A DNA stretch of 8,641 nucleotides from Pseudomonadota bacterium (GTDB lineage Bacteria; Pseudomonadota; Alphaproteobacteria; Acetobacterales; Acetobacteraceae): NCBI GenBank assembly GCA_021845835.1, contig JAJZVE010000162.1, forward strand, positions 1 through 8,641, in the 5' to 3' direction. Numbering within the stretch: position 1 is the first letter of the stretch; each line of letters opens with the position of its first letter. Positions 2,001-8,641 of this stretch are shown here, piece by piece. A program made the translations under genes and the position numbers. Under the pieces are notes generated by a model. It did no database searches. It had not been told where the DNA came from and saw nothing but the letters and a program-made list of their open reading frames with translations.

Positions 2001-3710
2001 ATGCAGCTCGCGACTGTAGTTGCAGACCGACAAGGAACCCGCCGGGCTGACCGGGCTTCCTGCCCGGCGCGGCTGCCCGCACCCTGCGGTTCGCCGGCCG
2101 AGGCGTTGCAGCGGCTGGTGACGCTGGCCGCGCGTCTCGTTCCCGGCACCGTCTGCTGGGTCGCGCTGGGTGCGCCGGGCCAGCTGCGACTGCAGGCGAT
2201 CAGTGGCGCGATGCCGGCGGACCTTAGCTGGCATCTGGCGCTCGCCGGAGAGGCGGCGCAGCGGCCGTGTCTGCTGCCCGACCTGAACGCGACGGCGTGC
2301 CGCGCGGCGGCGCGCGGACGCCGCCGACCGTTCCGCTGCTTTGCCGGAGTGCCGCTGCGCCGGCCGGACGGAAGCGGCTTCGGATCGGTCTGCCTTACGG
2401 CGCGCGTGGCGCGGAACGGGCACGAGGCGGAGGATCGCACGCTGCTCGCCGATCTCGCGCTGCTCGCGCAGCCGCATGCGCTGCTGCTGGCCGACCCCGT
2501 CGGCGCGGCTGCGGCGCCGGCCGGCGCGGCCCGGGACATCGCCGAACGCAAGGAGGCCGAGGCGGCGAGCCTGCAGACCGAGAAGCTGCAGTCGCTCGGC
2601 CGGCTGACCGGTGGCATCGCCCACGACTTCAACAATCTGCTCACCGTGATCTCGATGAACCTGGAGATGCTCGGGCAGTTGGTGCCGCCCGGCGATGAGT
2701 TGCTGGAATATGTCGAGCCGGCGCGGCAGGCGGCGCGCAGCGGCGCCGACCTCACCGCCCGCCTGCTCGCCTTCGCGCAGCGCCAGCCGCTGCATCCGGA
2801 ACCGGTGCGGCTCGACCGCTTCCTGGCGTCGCTGCGTGACCTGGCGGTGCGCACGATCGGCGGCTCCTGCACCATCGAGCTGCGCTGCGCCGCCGATCTG
2901 GGCGCCTGCCTGGTCGATCGCGCGCAGCTGGAAAGCGCGCTGCTCAACCTGATCGTCAATGCGCGCGACGCCATGCCGGCGGGCGGACGCATCGTGATCG
3001 CGGCCAGCAACGTGGCAGTCGCGGCGCCGGGCGCGGGCGGGCTGGCGGCGGGCGACTATGTCAGCGTCACCGTGTCCGACGAAGGCGTCGGTGTGCCGCC
3101 GGATATCCTGGATCGCGTGTTCGATCCGTTCTTCACCACCAAGCCGGTCGGCAAGGGCACCGGCCTCGGGCTGAGCACGGTGCTCGGCTTCGCGCGGCAG
3201 TCCGGCGGCCGGGTCGAGATTGCCAGCCAGCCGGGGCACGGCACCTCGGTCGTGCTGTACCTGCCGCGCGGCGGCGGTGGCGGTGGCGCCGGCGCGGCGC
3301 GCAGCGACCGCGACGCACAGGCCTGGATGCCGCGGCCGTGGCAGACGCTGGTGGTGGACGATGCGCCGGACGTGCTGACCGCGATGACGCGGATGTGCCG
3401 CGAGCTGGGCCTGCGGCCGACGCCGGCCGGCTGCGCTGAAGAAGCGATCGCGCTGCTGCACGGCGATACGCCGTTCGATCTGCTGCTGACCGACGTGATC
3501 CTGCCCGGCCGGTTCGGCGGCGCCGAGATCGCGCGCGAAGGGCGGCAGGCGTGGCCGTCGCTGCGCGTGCTGTTCACCTCCGGCTACACCGATACGGAAA
3601 TCGTCAACCGAGGCCGGCTTGACCGCGACAGCGAACTGCTGGTCAAGCCGTACAGCCGGCAACAGTTGCTGGCGGCGCTGCGGCGCGTCATGGAAGGCCG
3701 CGCCGCATAG
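2001..3710 (+). CDS. Soluble hybrid sensor histidine kinase: GAF-HisKA-HATPase_c-REC
   Basis: This 569-residue cytoplasmic kinase has no membrane segment or signal peptide. A GAF-type sensor domain lies at about residues 33-162 (AGVPLRRPDGSGFGSV is its typical late strand). A short Ala-rich linker and RDIAERKEAE follow. The dimerisation/phosphoacceptor helix has LTGGIAHDFNNLL, with the phosphorylated His at 208. The ATPase domain is intact: N-box Asn320 in LIVNARDAM, G1 DEGVG at 360-364, F-box FDPFF at 374-378, G2 GKGTGLGL at 384-391. After a six-glycine linker, a receiver domain has acidic pair D453-D454, phosphoacceptor D498 (LLLTDVILPG), T526 and K549. It should pass phosphate from His208 to Asp498, then to an unlinked Hpt protein or act locally. 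The ATG at 2001 lacks a clear Shine-Dalgarno. The upstream frame is open to 1908 but has no better start. The ligand is unknown. It precedes the FIST-kinase pair by 52 bp. Confidence 0.93.
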   Translation: MQLATVVADRQGTRRADRASCPARLPAPCGSPAEALQRLVTLAARLVPGTVCWVALGAPGQLRLQAISGAMPADLSWHLALAGEAAQRPCLLPDLNATACRAAARGRRRPFRCFAGVPLRRPDGSGFGSVCLTARVARNGHEAEDRTLLADLALLAQPHALLLADPVGAAAAPAGAARDIAERKEAEAASLQTEKLQSLGRLTGGIAHDFNNLLTVISMNLEMLGQLVPPGDELLEYVEPARQAARSGADLTARLLAFAQRQPLHPEPVRLDRFLASLRDLAVRTIGGSCTIELRCAADLGACLVDRAQLESALLNLIVNARDAMPAGGRIVIAASNVAVAAPGAGGLAAGDYVSVTVSDEGVGVPPDILDRVFDPFFTTKPVGKGTGLGLSTVLGFARQSGGRVEIASQPGHGTSVVLYLPRGGGGGGAGAARSDRDAQAWMPRPWQTLVVDDAPDVLTAMTRMCRELGLRPTPAGCAEEAIALLHGDTPFDLLLTDVILPGRFGGAEIAREGRQAWPSLRVLFTSGYTDTEIVNRGRLDRDSELLVKPYSRQQLLAALRRVMEGRAA

Positions 3711-3762: not shown

Positions 3763-5001
3763 ATGCGCAGTCGTTCACTTCATCTTTCGAAATGCGAGCG
3801 TGATGTGATCAGGATCGGGTACGCAAGGCATTTCGATGCGGCGAGTGCCGTGCAGCAATGTGCCGCATTCCTGCCGAAGCGGGATGTCTGCATGCTGATG
3901 GCGTTCTGCGGCGGCAAGCACGATCCGCTGGCGCTGCTGGGCGCGTTGCGCGCGACTTTCGGGCCGGTGCCGATCGTCGGCGGCTCGGCGGCCGGCGCCA
4001 TCTGCAACACCGCCAGCGGCTACAGCGGATTGGAAATTGCCGTCGCCGCCTTCGTCGATCCGGCGACGGTGCCGCGCGTGCTCGCCGAGCCGGGGCTGGA
4101 GAGCGACGAGCAGGACACCGGGCGGCGGCTCGGCCGCCGGGTGGCGGAGGTCGCGAGCGACGGCGCCACGGTGCTGTTGCTGTTCGACAGTGTGGCGCGC
4201 TGCGCGCCGCTGCGGCTGCATCCGGCCAGCGACATCGTGCGCGGCGTCACCGCAGGCCTGGGTGCCAGGCCGGTGCGTCTGTTCGGCGGCGGCACGCTGA
4301 CCGACATGAATCTGTCCGACGCCTGGGTGTTCGACGGCGACGGCGCGCGCAAGCACGCTGCCGTGGCGCTGGTGTTTCCGCCGCAGGTCGGCGCGGAGAT
4401 CGCCATCCTGCACGGCTGCCGCCCGGTCAGCACCTTCATGGACATCACCCGCATCGACGGCGCCGAGGTGTTCGAGCTCGACGGCAAGCCGGCGCTGACG
4501 GTGATCGAGCAGATGCTGGGCCTGCCGCTCGGCGGCTCGCAGGGCCAGGACCTGTCTCTGATCGCAACGCTCGGCGAGAAGCAGGGCGACCCGTTCGCGC
4601 CGTACCACGAAAGTGCCTACGTGAATCGCCTGATCCTGTCTGCCAATCGCGCCACCGGATCGATCACGCTGTTCGAGCCGGACTTCGCGCGCGGCACGCG
4701 CGTGCAGATCATGGCGCGCGACAACGGCCTGATGCTCGATTCGGTGCGCCACGGCATCACCCGCATCAACCGCGCGATCGCCGGCCGCGACGCCCTGTTC
4801 GCGCTTTACATCGACTGCGCCGGCCGCGCCAGCGCGCGCAGCGGCGCACAGGTGGAGGAAGCCGATCTGGTGCGCGGCAGCCTGCCGGGCGGCCTGCCGC
4901 TGCTCGGCTTCTATTCGGGCGTGGAAGTGGCGCCGTTCGACGGCTACAGCCGTCCGCTCGACTGGACCGGCGTCATCGGCGTGTTCTGTCGCACGCCATG
5001 A
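3763..5001 (+). CDS. FIST-domain (FIST_N + FIST_C) sensor protein, NosP-like
   Basis: FIST proteins are cytoplasmic ligand-binding sensors encoded beside signal-transduction proteins. The subset called NosP binds haem, senses nitric oxide and controls the adjacent histidine kinase NahK. This 412-residue protein shows FIST_N at about residues 40-215 (VPIVGGSAAGAI at 69-80, RLFGGGTLTD at 172-181) and FIST_C at about 235-395 (LYIDCAGRA at 348-356, GFYSGVEVAPFDG at 382-394, the usual closing motif). His217 (AILHGCRP) lies roughly where I recall a histidine in NosP proteins, but I cannot confirm that it binds haem. The start is uncertain: ATG 3763 has no Shine-Dalgarno and almost touches a TATAAA box, while in-frame GTG 3805 gives VIRIGYARHF, closer to the usual family start (398 residues). 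Its stop overlaps the next start as ATGA, so the two are translationally coupled. FIST is certain; NosP function is inferred from context. Confidence 0.9.
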   Translation: MRSRSLHLSKCERDVIRIGYARHFDAASAVQQCAAFLPKRDVCMLMAFCGGKHDPLALLGALRATFGPVPIVGGSAAGAICNTASGYSGLEIAVAAFVDPATVPRVLAEPGLESDEQDTGRRLGRRVAEVASDGATVLLLFDSVARCAPLRLHPASDIVRGVTAGLGARPVRLFGGGTLTDMNLSDAWVFDGDGARKHAAVALVFPPQVGAEIAILHGCRPVSTFMDITRIDGAEVFELDGKPALTVIEQMLGLPLGGSQGQDLSLIATLGEKQGDPFAPYHESAYVNRLILSANRATGSITLFEPDFARGTRVQIMARDNGLMLDSVRHGITRINRAIAGRDALFALYIDCAGRASARSGAQVEEADLVRGSLPGGLPLLGFYSGVEVAPFDGYSRPLDWTGVIGVFCRTP

Positions 5002-6321
5002 ACGAGCAGCTTCAGCGCGAGCTGAACTACTACCGCCGCGAGTGCAACGACCTCGGCGCCCGTCTGCTGCGGCTGCAGGAGGAACAAAGCCAGGCGTTCC
5101 GCGAGGCCCGGCGCAGCCGCACCACCGCGAAACTGGTGCGCGAGGCGTACCGGCTGGCCGACGGCGCCGCCTCGCTGGCGGACGTGGGCGGCGCGCTGCT
5201 CGACGTGATCGTTGACAACGCGATGTGCGACCGCCGCCTTCCTCGCAGAAGCGCCGGCCGGATCGGGTAACTTCGTCATCACCCACGCGGTCGGCCTGGC
5301 CGGTGAGCCGCCGCCGGCCTCCGCGCGCATCCTTGACTGTCCGGCGTTCTTCTTCACCACCGCGCAGACGCGCATCGAGCCGCCGGCCTACGAGCTGACC
5401 GGCATCCTGAAACGTCCGTACATCCTGTGGGCCTACGACAAGGCGAGCGGGCAGGCGCTGATCCTCGGCAACCGTTCGGAAAGCAACATCAGCCGCCCGT
5501 TCGAGCCGGGCGACCAGGAACTGGTGGAGGGTGCGCTCTCGGTCTATCTCGACGTGCTGACGCGCAAGCAGGCGGAGTTGCAGCTGCGCCGCGCCAAACA
5601 GGTCGCGGAGGAGACCGTCGATGCCACGGCCGAGTTCCTCGCCGCCGTGAGCGGCGCGCTGCGCTCGCCGCTCAACTCGATCCTCGGCTGCTCGGAAAAG
5701 ATGACGTCGGGGTCGCGCTATCCGCTCACCATCGAAAACTGCGCCGGGTTCGCCGATCGCATCCACGAATCCGGCAACCGCGTGCTGGCGCTGCTGAACG
5801 GCCTGCTGGAGTATTCCAGCTTCGCCAGGGTGACGCTGTCGCTGGCGCCGGCGTGGCGGCCGCTGCGCGAGCTGGTCGGCGCCGCGGTCGGCGCCGGTGC
5901 CGTCCTCGGCCAGCCGCGCCGCGTGCTGGTGGACAGCGACCTTGCCGCCGATGTGGAACTGCACGTCGATCCGGTGTGCTTCGGCCAGGTGCTGACGACG
6001 CTGGTCGGCAGCGCCGTCCGCACCAGCCCGGTCGCCGGGCGGGTGAACGTGTCGGCGCTGCTGTGCCAGGACGGCTCGATCGAGATCGGCGTGCAGGGCG
6101 CCGCGCCGTGGGGCGGCCCTGCCAACAATCCCGCCGGCCTTGAGGAACTCAGCCTGCCGATCATGCGCGCGCTGGTGGGCGTGCATGACGGCCGCATGAT
6201 CCTGCACGGCGAGGCACCGCGGCCGGCGACCGCGACGATCGCGCTGCCCGCGCATCGGGTGCGCATGGCGCTGCCGGTGCGCGGCAGCCGGCCGGGCGTG
6301 CCGTTGCTGCCGCACGCCTGA
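4998..6321 (+). pseudogene. NahK-like histidine kinase partner of FIST, frameshifted and lacking all catalytic motifs
   Basis: The first frame (4998-5270) encodes a coiled coil (residues 1-55, YYRRECNDLGARLLRLQEEQ) and the start of a GAF-like domain, ending in sense at MCDR (residue 79). Similarity then continues one base out of phase as AFLAEAP, in a frame open to TGA 6319-6321. There the GAF-like domain ends (PAYELTGILKRPYILWAYD, then VYLDVLTRKQAE) and a HisKA/HATPase_c region follows. Joined, it is about 440 residues with no receiver. The kinase region is recognisable but dead: the expected SHELRTPLN reads SGALRSPLN (His to Gly, codon 5653-5655), the N-box reads TLVGSAVRTSP without its Asn, G1 reads VQGAAPW without its Asp, the lid and F-box are missing, and G2 reads LEELSLP. 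The first start overlaps the FIST stop (ATGA). A shorter product from TTG 5212 is possible. It is either a decaying gene or a scaffold pseudokinase. Confidence 0.8.
5209..5267 (+). other. Frameshift window in the NahK-like gene
   Basis: The second frame is closed by a TGA at 5206-5208 and the first by a TAA at 5268-5270, so the switch must fall between them. Protein sense changes at GACCGCCGCCTTC (5229-5241). One surplus C near 5235 gives CDR-AFLAE. Loss of a CG dinucleotide from a former CGCG run would give CDR-AAFLAE, which looks closer to the family. A true mutation, a sequencing error and a recoding site all fit this position. Confidence 0.75.
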
Positions 6322-6324
6322 GGG

Positions 6325-7500
6325 TCAGCCGACGGCACCGGGCGGCGTCGCGGCCAGCGTCGCCAGGTTCTCGTCGATGGCGCGGAACAGGCCCCAGCTC
6401 TCCTGGTAGTTCAGCGGGAAGCCGGGGCAGCCGGCATCCACATCCTGCTGGCGCGCCTGGATGTAGCCGGTCCAGCGCCGCGTCGCCGGCCGCCGGTGGT
6501 GGAAGTCGTGACACGGCGCGTCGCCCACCAGCACGAACAGCCGCACGAACAGCTGCACCGTCAGCATCTGCACCCACCACCACGTCCAGGCCAGCAGCCC
6601 GTGCAGCGAGGCGGCCGATCGGTGCGGCGGCATCGCGCCGGGGAACACGCCGGCGGTGGCCCGGCAGATGAACTCCTTGCCGCGGGCGGCGATCAGCGCC
6701 GGGGCCGGGAAACGGTGCTCGCACAGGATGCGGAACACCGTCGCCACCTGCAGCAGCACGGTGACCGGCAGCACCCAGGCGACCAGGAACCCGACCAGCC
6801 GCCCGCTCGCCGCCGCGGCAGCGAAGCCGCACGCCCAGGCGGCGATGCCGAAGGCGTTGTGCGCCCGGTCCGCCGAGCCGAGGCTGGCATGCAGGCGCCG
6901 CCACAGGAACCGGGCATGGAAGCCGGGGGAAACGAGGTTCGCCAGCACCCGCCGCCACAGCGCCCGCTTCGCCGTCCCTGCGTGCAGGCCGCACATGGCG
7001 AACACGAAGTCGGCGAATTCGTCCTCTGCGGTGAGCAGTTTCCTGGGGCTGTGGTGCAGCATGTGCCCGCGCTGATAGGCGTCGAACTGCCTGAACAGCA
7101 GCAGCGCCGAGATCGCCCGCCCCACCAGCCGGTTGCGCGCGCGGTCCCGGAACACGGTGCCGTGGGCGCAATGGTGGAACACCACGACCTGCAACAGTCC
7201 AAGCCCCGAACTGGTCAGCAGCAGCCCGAGCGGCAGCGGCCCGAACAGCGCCCAGCCCGAACGTTCCAGCGCCCACGCGGTCAAGGCCGCGCCGCCGAGG
7301 CTGCACGCCAGAGCGGCGGTGACGAAGCGCTGCGGCGAGCTTGGCGGCACCGCTTCCCCCGGCGCCGGGCGCGCCGTCAGCCATGTAAGAAACGGCTGGA
7401 GCCAGGGTGGCAGTTGCAGGAACATCATGGCCCTCGGGTCCGATCGCATCGGCCAAGCGGCTGCCCAGGGTACATGAATGCGGGGTGACATGTATGTCAT
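6325..7500 (-). CDS. Membrane fatty acid desaturase-like di-iron protein
   Basis: This 391-residue polytopic membrane protein has the three histidine boxes of the fatty acid desaturase/hydroxylase superfamily, which bind a di-iron centre and use O2 to desaturate or hydroxylate acyl or isoprenoid chains. Box 1 is HHCAHG (H109, H113), box 2 HMLHH (H146, H149, H150) and box 3 HDFHH (H331, H334, H335), with another His in EHRFP (262). Hydrophobic stretches lie at about 62-80, 88-108, 215-255 and 302-327, as expected for boxes facing the cytoplasm. The start at 7500 has AGGA (minus strand, 7512-7509) 8 nt upstream. A second possible start is the ATG at 7428, after GAGGG. It converges on the NahK-like gene with 3 bp between stops and is divergent from the GT87 gene. 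The substrate cannot be read from the sequence; I see no adjacent electron-transfer or carotenoid gene. No key residue is missing. Confidence 0.85.
   Translation of the reverse strand: MTYMSPRIHVPWAAAWPMRSDPRAMMFLQLPPWLQPFLTWLTARPAPGEAVPPSSPQRFVTAALACSLGGAALTAWALERSGWALFGPLPLGLLLTSSGLGLLQVVVFHHCAHGTVFRDRARNRLVGRAISALLLFRQFDAYQRGHMLHHSPRKLLTAEDEFADFVFAMCGLHAGTAKRALWRRVLANLVSPGFHARFLWRRLHASLGSADRAHNAFGIAAWACGFAAAAASGRLVGFLVAWVLPVTVLLQVATVFRILCEHRFPAPALIAARGKEFICRATAGVFPGAMPPHRSAASLHGLLAWTWWWVQMLTVQLFVRLFVLVGDAPCHDFHHRRPATRRWTGYIQARQQDVDAGCPGFPLNYQESWGLFRAIDENLATLAATPPGAVG
7486..7499. promoter_or_regulatory. Perfect dyad over the desaturase start codon
   Basis: TGACAT-GT-ATGTCA is a perfect 6-2-6 inverted repeat covering most of the initiation codon (7498-7500) and the next four codons. 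It could be an operator just downstream of the promoter, or a small mRNA hairpin over the start. The 2-nt centre is too tight for a full hairpin, which favours a protein site if it is functional at all. Confidence 0.35.
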
Positions 7501-7533
7501 TGGCTGTTTCCTTCCCGGATGAGACATATTGTT

Positions 7534-7556
7534 GGCAGATCGGTTCCGATCATGCC
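7534..7556. promoter_or_regulatory. Extended palindrome in the desaturase/GT87 divergent promoter region
   Basis: GATCGG-TT-CCGATC (7538-7551) is a perfect 6-2-6 dyad. It extends outward to GGCA...TGCC if one A (7552) is bulged, giving about 10 paired positions per arm. It lies about 35 bp upstream of the desaturase start, where a repressor site would be expected. The sequence is not one I can assign to a regulator. Confidence 0.4.
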
Positions 7557-7564
7557 GGACCAGT

Positions 7565-7607
7565 GCCCTGAACGGGCGATAGTCTGGACTGTCGCGATCC
7601 ATTCGCG
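7565..7607. repeat. Two further short dyads in the divergent gap
   Basis: GCCC-TGAAC-GGGC (7565-7577) and CGCGA-TCCAT-TCGCG (7593-7607) are perfect inverted repeats with 5-nt centres. Individually they are easy to get by chance at this GC content. Their clustering with the palindromes at 7486-7499 and 7534-7556 is the only reason to record them. Confidence 0.25.
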
Positions 7608-7644
7608 CATTGGAAAGTGCGGCATGATCTTCCGTAACGACAAC

Positions 7645-7718
7645 GCCGCCGGACCCGTTGCCTGACGGCGGCGGACGCGCGCTTGCGGCGGCGCCGTTGC
7701 GGCGGCATATCGCCGCCG
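7645..7718 (+). other. GC-rich stem-loops in the GT87 leader
   Basis: GCCGCCG (7645-7651) pairs with CGGCGGC (7666-7672). Nearer the gene, CGGCGGC (7700-7706) pairs with GCCGCCG (7712-7718) around an ATATC loop. The second ends 17 nt before the GT87 ATG, next to its only Shine-Dalgarno-like stretch (GGGGCGGG, 7722-7729), so it might affect initiation. CGG repeats are common in this genome, so this may be only composition. Confidence 0.3.
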
Positions 7719-7735
7719 GCCGGGGCGGGCACGAC

Positions 7736-8641
7736 ATGGCGGCGACGGCGGACCGGGCGAGCGGGCTACGGCAGTGGTGCGGGCGGGCGCTGCGTGACGG
7801 CACGTTCCTCGACCGCGCCCGCGTCGCCGGCTGGAGCGGCGTGCTGCTGGGGCTGGAACTGCTGGCGCTGGGCTTCCTGGTGCTGTGGACGCATGGCGCC
7901 TTTGCGCCGCAGCCGCCGACGACGAGCGGCTTCAGCAGCTTCTACGCCGCCGGCCGTCTCGCGCTCGGCCCGGCGCCGCAGCTCGCCTATGACCCGGCGG
8001 CGCATTATGCCGCGCAGCAGGCGGCGACCGCAGCGGGCGTCGAGCATTTCGTGTTCTTCTATCCGCCCGTGTTCCTGCTGCTGTGCGCGCCGCTGGCGAT
8101 GCTGCCCTATATGGCGGCGTTGCTGCTGTTCGAGGCGGCGACGCTGGCGCTCTACCTGCCGGTCGGCGCGCGCATCCTGAGCTTGCCGGGGTGGGCGGGA
8201 CGGCTGCCGGTGCTGGCCTTTCCGGCGGTGATCTGGACGCTCGGGCTGGGGCAGAACGCGCTGCTGACGGCGGCGCTGTTCGGCGGCGGCTTGCTGTTGC
8301 TGGAGCGGCGGCCGGCGCTCGGCGGCGCGGTGCTGGGGCTGCTGTGCTACAAGCCGCATTTCGGCCTGCTGCTGCCGGTGGCACTGCTGGCCGGCCGACA
8401 TTGGCGCGCGGTCGCCGGTGCCGCCGCGAGCGTGACGGCGCTGGTCGTGCTCTCGCTCGCCGCCTTCGGCTGGCCGACCTGGCTCGCCTACCTGCACGCC
8501 TTCGCCGGGTCGGGCGGCGTCTATGCCAGCGGCCAGGTGAGTTTCGCCGCCTTCGTCACCCCGTACGGCGCGGCGCTGCTGCTGGGCGCCCGGCCCGCGG
8601 TCGCGGTTGCGGTCCAGGCCGCCGCCGCGCTGTGCGCTGCG
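7736..8641 (+). CDS. GT87/DUF2029 polytopic membrane glycosyltransferase-like protein (3' end outside window)
   Basis: The frame stays open from ATG 7736 to the last base (302 codons, no stop). The protein is a multi-spanning membrane protein of the DUF2029/GT87 group: GT-C-fold enzymes that move sugars from polyprenyl-phosphate donors to lipid or polymer acceptors on the outer face of the cytoplasmic membrane (mycobacterial PimE is the known member). Signs are a first membrane helix at about 34-52, then FSSFYAAGRLAL (66-77), AYDPAAHYAAQQAAT (84-98), FFYPPVFLLLCAPLAMLPY (107-125), GLGQNALLTAALFGG (170-184) and GLLCYKPHFGLLLPVAL (201-217), with further helices beyond. Residue 65, before FSSFYAAG, is Gly, where I recall an Asp (a DF-SF-AAG pattern) in relatives. 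The start has only a weak GGGGCGGG upstream. In-frame TTG codons at 7658 and 7697 are less likely alternatives. The acceptor is unknown. It is divergent from the desaturase gene. Confidence 0.85.
   Translation, partial: MAATADRASGLRQWCGRALRDGTFLDRARVAGWSGVLLGLELLALGFLVLWTHGAFAPQPPTTSGFSSFYAAGRLALGPAPQLAYDPAAHYAAQQAATAAGVEHFVFFYPPVFLLLCAPLAMLPYMAALLLFEAATLALYLPVGARILSLPGWAGRLPVLAFPAVIWTLGLGQNALLTAALFGGGLLLLERRPALGGAVLGLLCYKPHFGLLLPVALLAGRHWRAVAGAAASVTALVVLSLAAFGWPTWLAYLHAFAGSGGVYASGQVSFAAFVTPYGAALLLGARPAVAVAVQAAAALCAA

Follow-up and report, generated by a model that had tools for sequence, protein, structure and literature searches.

Gene organization at the locus

We analyzed a window of 8,641 nucleotides (positions 1 to 8,641 of contig JAJZVE010000162.1, assembly GCA_021845835.1) from an alphaproteobacterium of the Acetobacteraceae, in which the gene of a FIST sensor protein is directly followed by the gene of a histidine kinase-like protein whose catalytic motifs are gone, hereafter the pseudokinase. 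The window denotes this whole stretch at its full length. The dimerization and histidine phosphotransfer (DHp) and catalytic and ATP-binding (CA) domains of the pseudokinase are described with reference to P0001, a protein of 441 residues from another public contig that is 99% identical to the second piece of the window gene. The features that the argument draws upon are as follows.

2001 to 3710, + strand: intact hybrid histidine kinase with HisKA, HATPase_c and receiver domains (Pfam HATPase_c 80 bits, Response_reg 47 bits, HisKA 34 bits)
3763 to 5001, + strand: FIST sensor protein with FIST N and FIST C domains (Pfam FIST 92 bits, FIST_C 67 bits)
4998 to 5270, + strand: pseudokinase gene, first piece, with the start codon and N-terminal helix; matches P0001 residues 1-79
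5212 to 6321, + strand, other frame: pseudokinase gene, second piece, with the remainder of the sensor-like domain as well as DHp and CA domains that lack the catalytic motifs; corresponds to P0001 from residue 80
5650 to 5670, + strand: H-box remnant SGALRSP, acceptor His replaced by Gly (GGC, 5653-5655) and the next Glu by Ala
5989 to 6027, + strand: N-box remnant VLTTLVGSAVRTS, Asn replaced by Ser (codon 6010-6012)
6091 to 6111, + strand: G1 remnant VQGAAPW, Asp of DxGxG replaced by Gly (GGC, 6097-6099)
6112 to 6138, + strand: shortened ATP lid without an F-box (the G1-to-G2 box spacer of the alignment)
6139 to 6159, + strand: G2 remnant LEELSLP, with zero glycines

The hybrid kinase stop and the FIST start are 52 bases apart, and the ATG of the pseudokinase, at 4998, shares bases with the FIST stop codon (4999-5001). 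The best NCBIfam matches of the hybrid kinase are PRK13557 and CckA-type hybrid kinases, all below cut-off. The description of the FIST protein as NosP-like in the original prediction is not supported in the strict sense, as it scores 39.7 bits against the NosP equivalog model (cut-off 450); the second piece of the pseudokinase scores 15.8 bits against the NahK model (cut-off 1500), and membership in the NosP/NahK system was rejected on these scores.

A single open frame had also been assumed. In the window, the frame of the ATG at 4998 runs for 90 codons, stopping at 5270, and the rest of the gene lies in another open frame (5212-6321), such that the copy is broken between its start codon and the part that had been read. 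As the frame of the near-identical P0001 is whole, the copy of the window strain has either been broken recently or been misread. The frame is likewise unbroken in the homologues L001 and L004, which together with P0001 led us to drop a programmed frameshift. The break is a matter separate from the retention of the protein at the level of the clade.

Loss of the catalytic motifs and predicted fold

The replacements of the acceptor His, the N-box Asn and the G1 Asp, together with the LEELSLP reading of the G2 box, were all confirmed at their places as named in the original prediction. Its claim for the ATP lid stood in part: the lid is shortened and the F-box absent, but the shortfall is smaller than had been guessed. 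Thirteen residues separate the G1 position from LEELSLP in the window sequence; in the alignment the G1-to-G2 spacer has 10 residues, compared with 26 in nearly all intact rows, making the window lid approximately 16 residues shorter than that of its intact relatives. In Pfam the second piece matches HisKA (29.3 bits, cut-off 26.9; residues 140-203 of that piece) and gives no match to HATPase_c. The Glu that follows the acceptor His is needed for phosphatase activity. ATP binding, self-phosphorylation and dephosphorylation of a partner by the window protein are not expected.

Structure prediction, proposed at the outset as a check, gave in AlphaFold a confident kinase-core fold, CA domain included, so that the DHp-CA fold is predicted to persist. 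The fold neighbors of the pseudokinase include the DivL structure 4q20. The N-terminal part gave no Pfam match to PAS, although this domain was neither folded nor searched on its own. Two Cys, at P0001 residues 16 and 77, are conserved across intact and disarmed members alike, in at least 90% of the 66 aligned.

Two disarmed clades within one family

Relatives were collected in three protein searches, each taken to its best 120 matches (for the first, the best 120 of 147 relatives) and two of them seeded with disarmed rows, so that the row counts of the clades are not frequencies. The window clade comprises P0001-P0015 (15 alignment rows, 18 tree rows), with P0001 being 57-77% identical to its 14 nearest relatives among the matches listed. 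None of the 15 rows has the acceptor His, the Glu following it, the G1 Asp, an F-box or the G2 motif, and all 15 proteins are full length, at 436-466 residues. The N-box Asn is kept in five of the 15 and a single Gly stands at the G2 place in three. The acceptor place holds Gly, Asp or Glu, and Ala in the more distant P0153. The G1-G2 spacer ranges from 10 to 28 residues, falling below 26 in 14/15 rows, and lid shortening is thus not uniform across the clade. Pfam recognizes HATPase_c at E<=0.1 in 11 of the 15. We looked along the DHp helices for an invariant His that replaces the acceptor and found none. Intact FIST-linked kinases that were aligned are 43-53% identical to P0001, and four members of the family (P0106, P0107, P0109 and P0114) have a receiver domain fused to them, giving a hybrid form.

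Outside P0001-P0015, the rows of the first search are mostly intact, with eight disarmed differently and three truncated or broken. Searching with those eight revealed a second, larger disarmed clade, which includes L005-L008, L030 and many of P0105-P0253. With so many relatives alike, an unusual design in the sense of a one-off is not supported. In total 293 rows were scored (254 proteins and 39 loci, with genes partly shared), of which 163 are intact and 130 are not; removal of five with truncated or broken ends left 288 tree rows, 163 intact and 125 without the G1 Asp (18 in the window clade, 107 in the second). Although it has no ATP site, the second clade has the H-box His in 27/107 rows, as compared with 0/18 in the window clade, and loss of the acceptor is therefore not common to the whole of it. 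Disarming may have followed different paths: the DHp bundle persists in the window clade, where the acceptor His is gone, and in the second clade the DHp is diverging and there is no ATP site.

In a quick tree of the N-terminal domain alone, the intact or disarmed label requires two changes, with support of 97 and 98 in the Shimodaira-Hasegawa-like approximate likelihood ratio test (SH-aLRT). The two disarmed clades are separate in this tree, yet their union is not rejected by the approximately unbiased test (p-AU 0.42), and the full-length tree, motif columns included, places them together (support 89, unstarred). L042 and L043 were rejected as a root for being too distant, with branches over 4.

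Distribution and gene order

Genomes were searched with a profile of the N-terminal domain in samples that overlap, G001 being the genome of L001. Matches were found in 42/397 genomes of the family of G001 (E 1e-20), 13/195 genomes of relatives (E 1e-60), 31/395 of the order and 3/385 genomes in a search of the class (E 1e-30); by genus, they were found in 2/5 genomes for that of G001, 4/4 for that of G018 and 1/1 for that of G040. Only G001 and G231 carry the window clade among the genomes searched in this way. The 45 resulting loci (42 family genomes, two from the class search and the window) divide into 33 intact, eight disarmed (the window, L001 and L004; L005-L008 and L030), one with a broken CA domain (L040) and three without recognizable kinase motifs.

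FIST lies directly upstream of the gene with the N-terminal domain in 45/45 loci, the window included, and the window gene, which has this shared domain directly after FIST, belongs to the FIST-linked kinase family. The disarmed gene occupies the place where relatives carry an active kinase. Each of the seven disarmed genomes gave a single profile match, and in the genus of G018 a disarmed copy is present in all four genomes searched. With one match per genome in the same place, the disarmed gene looks like an orthologue of the active kinase and not a spare copy, as far as the assemblies are complete.

An intact hybrid kinase precedes the FIST match by 53-77 bases in 3/3 loci of the window clade (window, L001 and L004), with its H, N, G1 and G2 motifs and receiver Asp present in all three; its H-box is of another type (HDFNN). 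The 31 intact loci that were examined include seven with an adjacent kinase and five with one at a distance of 1.3-2.7 kb. As shown below, this arrangement does not extend to the second-clade loci with enough upstream sequence.

At L042 (6469-7797), L043 (6258-7538) and L046 (match 6881-6279, - strand), what follows FIST is a domain distantly related to the N-terminal domain, and the C-terminal part joined to it has no recognizable kinase motifs in any of the three, L042 alone having also been scanned with Pfam. At L040 (6311-7981) the H-box and N-box are intact and the sequence after the N-box is unlike a CA domain, probably owing to a frame break. Two further genes flank the system in the window:

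608-1501: gene of a LysR-type regulator, ahead of the hybrid kinase gene
within 6325-7803: fatty acid desaturase gene, facing the + strand kinase, FIST and pseudokinase genes

In L004 too, a LysR-type regulator (77% identical) precedes the hybrid kinase, and a desaturase homologue, a conserved neighbor of the FIST-kinase pair, lies within the fetched stretch in 35/45 loci, several of these stretches being short.

Selection on the disarmed domains

The original prediction left open whether the gene had drifted after inactivation or had been retained, and named intact close relatives with a ratio of nonsynonymous to synonymous substitution rates (dN/dS, or omega) near 1 as the sign of decay. The opposite was found. 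The nearest relatives are disarmed, and a codon model with F3x4 frequencies, run beside plain counting of dN/dS, gave omega of 0.12, 0.22 and 0.19 for the CA domain in three window-clade pairs, with omega=1 rejected in each (twice the log-likelihood difference 48.0, 29.5 and 29.1). Omega=1 was also rejected for the window-clade DHp domain (omega 0.06-0.08). The FIST protein (0.085-0.105) and the hybrid kinase (0.12-0.15) are likewise constrained. In the second clade, the CA domain has an omega of 0.06-0.08 in three pairs under the codon model. Second-clade pairs with the distant L030 gave plain-counting values of 0.74-0.82 for CA and 1.0-1.2 for DHp at 14-34% identity, and were set aside as saturated and poorly aligned. 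It is well supported that the protein of the disarmed clade is retained under purifying selection: at the level of the clade, with 15/15 rows disarmed, retention is supported and drift is not.

Mean pairwise identities of the N-terminal, DHp and CA domains are 0.79/0.72/0.42 in the window clade (15 rows), 0.69/0.30/0.42 in the second clade (107 rows) and 0.70/0.59/0.52 in 60 of the intact rows, to be compared only as ratios within a group since the groups differ in depth.

A model for the pseudokinase and its alternatives

We propose a model for the pseudokinase that most reasonably fits these observations, in which it is very probably a non-catalytic adaptor maintained by selection. With the acceptor, the ATP site and the phosphatase Glu lost, protein contact is its likely output. 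The protein retains its N-terminal helix, sensor-like domain and dimerizing DHp bundle, along with the predicted CA fold. FIST would bind a ligand and dock onto the conserved N-terminal part, which is the likeliest site because intact and disarmed members share it and it comes after FIST at every locus fetched, and the resulting change in the DHp dimer would be passed by protein contact to an active kinase. We consider this whole chain to be probable, leaving aside which active kinase the pseudo-histidine-kinase adaptor would couple to FIST. The likeliest receiver in the window clade would be the CckA-type hybrid kinase just upstream, apparently in the same operon, on which the pseudokinase may act in the way that DivL acts on CckA; we regard the hybrid kinase as a quite possible partner there, somewhat short of a probable one.

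Several observations weigh against the model. The CA omega of the window clade exceeds that of 5/6 intact pairs in all three comparisons (intact pairs 0.02-0.18, five of the six at 0.11 or less), from which it follows that constraint on this domain is relaxed to some degree, and no other domain of the clade is as weakly conserved as CA. Plain counting gave a dN/dS of 0.46-0.65 for the window-clade CA domain, with seven intact pairs of like divergence at 0.40-0.69. The three window-clade pairs are drawn from three sequences, these being the only loci of the clade with DNA, and are not independent, and their synonymous sites are near saturation (proportion of synonymous differences 0.36-0.48). 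When two very distant outgroup rows were added to the tree, the window clade no longer formed one side of a branch (two changes), and did so in 32% of bootstrap trees. A kinase is within reach in none of the three second-clade loci with at least 4.5 kb of upstream sequence, so that the partner cannot be a neighboring kinase in every case, and an adjacent kinase as the common partner of both disarmed clades was rejected. Finally, the window copy being frame-broken, the pseudokinase may not be made in the window strain.

A special case of the adaptor, which we hold to be unlikely though still worth weighing, is a heterodimer regulator, in which the pseudokinase pairs through its DHp helices with a second kinase, be it the hybrid kinase upstream or some other, and switches it. 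RetS acts on GacS by such a pairing. The H-box of the hybrid kinase is of the HDFNN type, however, with no sign of an ability to pair, and the structural match is one common to kinase cores generally.

Simple decay, in which an inactivated kinase is drifting and its open frame is a leftover, would account for the loss of every motif, the broken window copy, the intact orthologues at 33/45 loci and a CA omega above that of most intact pairs. It does not fit entire clades that are disarmed yet full length, the rejection of omega=1 in both DHp and CA, an N-terminal domain averaging 79% identity, or the disarmed copy in all four genomes searched of another genus, that of G018. At the level of the clade decay is largely refuted by the selection tests, and we judge it very improbable. 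We give just as little credence to a cryptic enzyme that binds nucleotide or transfers phosphate through non-canonical residues, and consider it very improbable: a CA fold that is confidently predicted and under selection would suit it, as would the N-box Asn and H-box His that persist in some rows of the window and second clades, respectively, but the G1 Asp, G2 pattern and F-box are gone in 15/15 rows (the occasional G2-place Gly notwithstanding), no invariant DHp His substitutes for the acceptor, and the Glu after it is lost too. Sequence or assembly error, to which the one frame break might point, has next to no chance of explaining the motif losses and is refuted for them, as P0001, L001 and L004 from other public contigs share the losses in an unbroken frame; it may account for the frame break alone.

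Comparison with known systems

The preferred reading, a selected non-catalytic adaptor, finds its best model for how the pseudokinase could act in DivL of Caulobacter, which has no kinase activity of its own and controls the hybrid kinase CckA (PMC4211667). Both would combine a HisKA/HATPase fold with absence of kinase activity. DivL's known client is an alphaproteobacterial hybrid kinase (PMC4211667), a CckA-type hybrid kinase lies next door in the window, and 4q20 is a fold neighbor. The two differ in that the acceptor place is Tyr in DivL (Ala in one species) and Gly in the window protein, that DivL has PAS domains while the window protein has a FIST neighbor and an apparently different N-terminal domain, and that the lid, G1 and G2 of the window protein are lost as well.

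In the NosP system FIST binds the kinase NahK or NosK and sets its activity (PMC12570481), and there too a FIST gene adjoins a kinase gene. The window kinase, unlike NahK, has no catalytic motif whatsoever. VpsS of Vibrio is an active hybrid kinase. Its neighbor VpsV is a FIST protein proposed as the sensing partner of a soluble kinase (PMC4398556), and the likeness to the window lies in a FIST gene with a neighboring hybrid kinase and in the sensing role proposed for FIST. There FIST is upstream of the hybrid kinase, whereas in the window the disarmed gene follows FIST and the hybrid kinase is on its other side. The ChrS pseudokinase of evolved Corynebacterium glutamicum has lost CA function and still promotes signaling via an active paralogue (PMC9491836); it is a laboratory mutant of one strain, where here whole clades are affected. 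In Roseomonas, Falsiroseomonas, Inquilinus and others, the intact kinases beside FIST have the same N-terminal domain and occupy the same place but, unlike the window protein, carry all of the catalytic motifs.

No paper on FIST-linked pseudokinases was found among the titles and abstract openings of the papers listed from a mostly non-subscription literature. The pseudo-histidine-kinases that this literature yielded, DivL and the ChrS mutant among them, are single cases. In the present family, intact and disarmed orthologues of related genomes share a place beside the same sensor, which makes the steps from kinase to adaptor, and the fate of the fold, directly comparable. The label "signal transduction histidine kinase", attached to several of the disarmed proteins, can mislead about activity.

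More broadly, and tentatively, we suggest that in several lineages of the Acetobacteraceae FIST sensing may have been freed from phosphorylation by its partner, with the kinase core disarmed, possibly twice and by different paths, and now serving as a switchable contact module. If sensing is independent of phosphorylation in this manner, the common core of the system would be FIST together with the N-terminal domain, a combination represented by L042, L043 and L046 with their distant relative of that domain.
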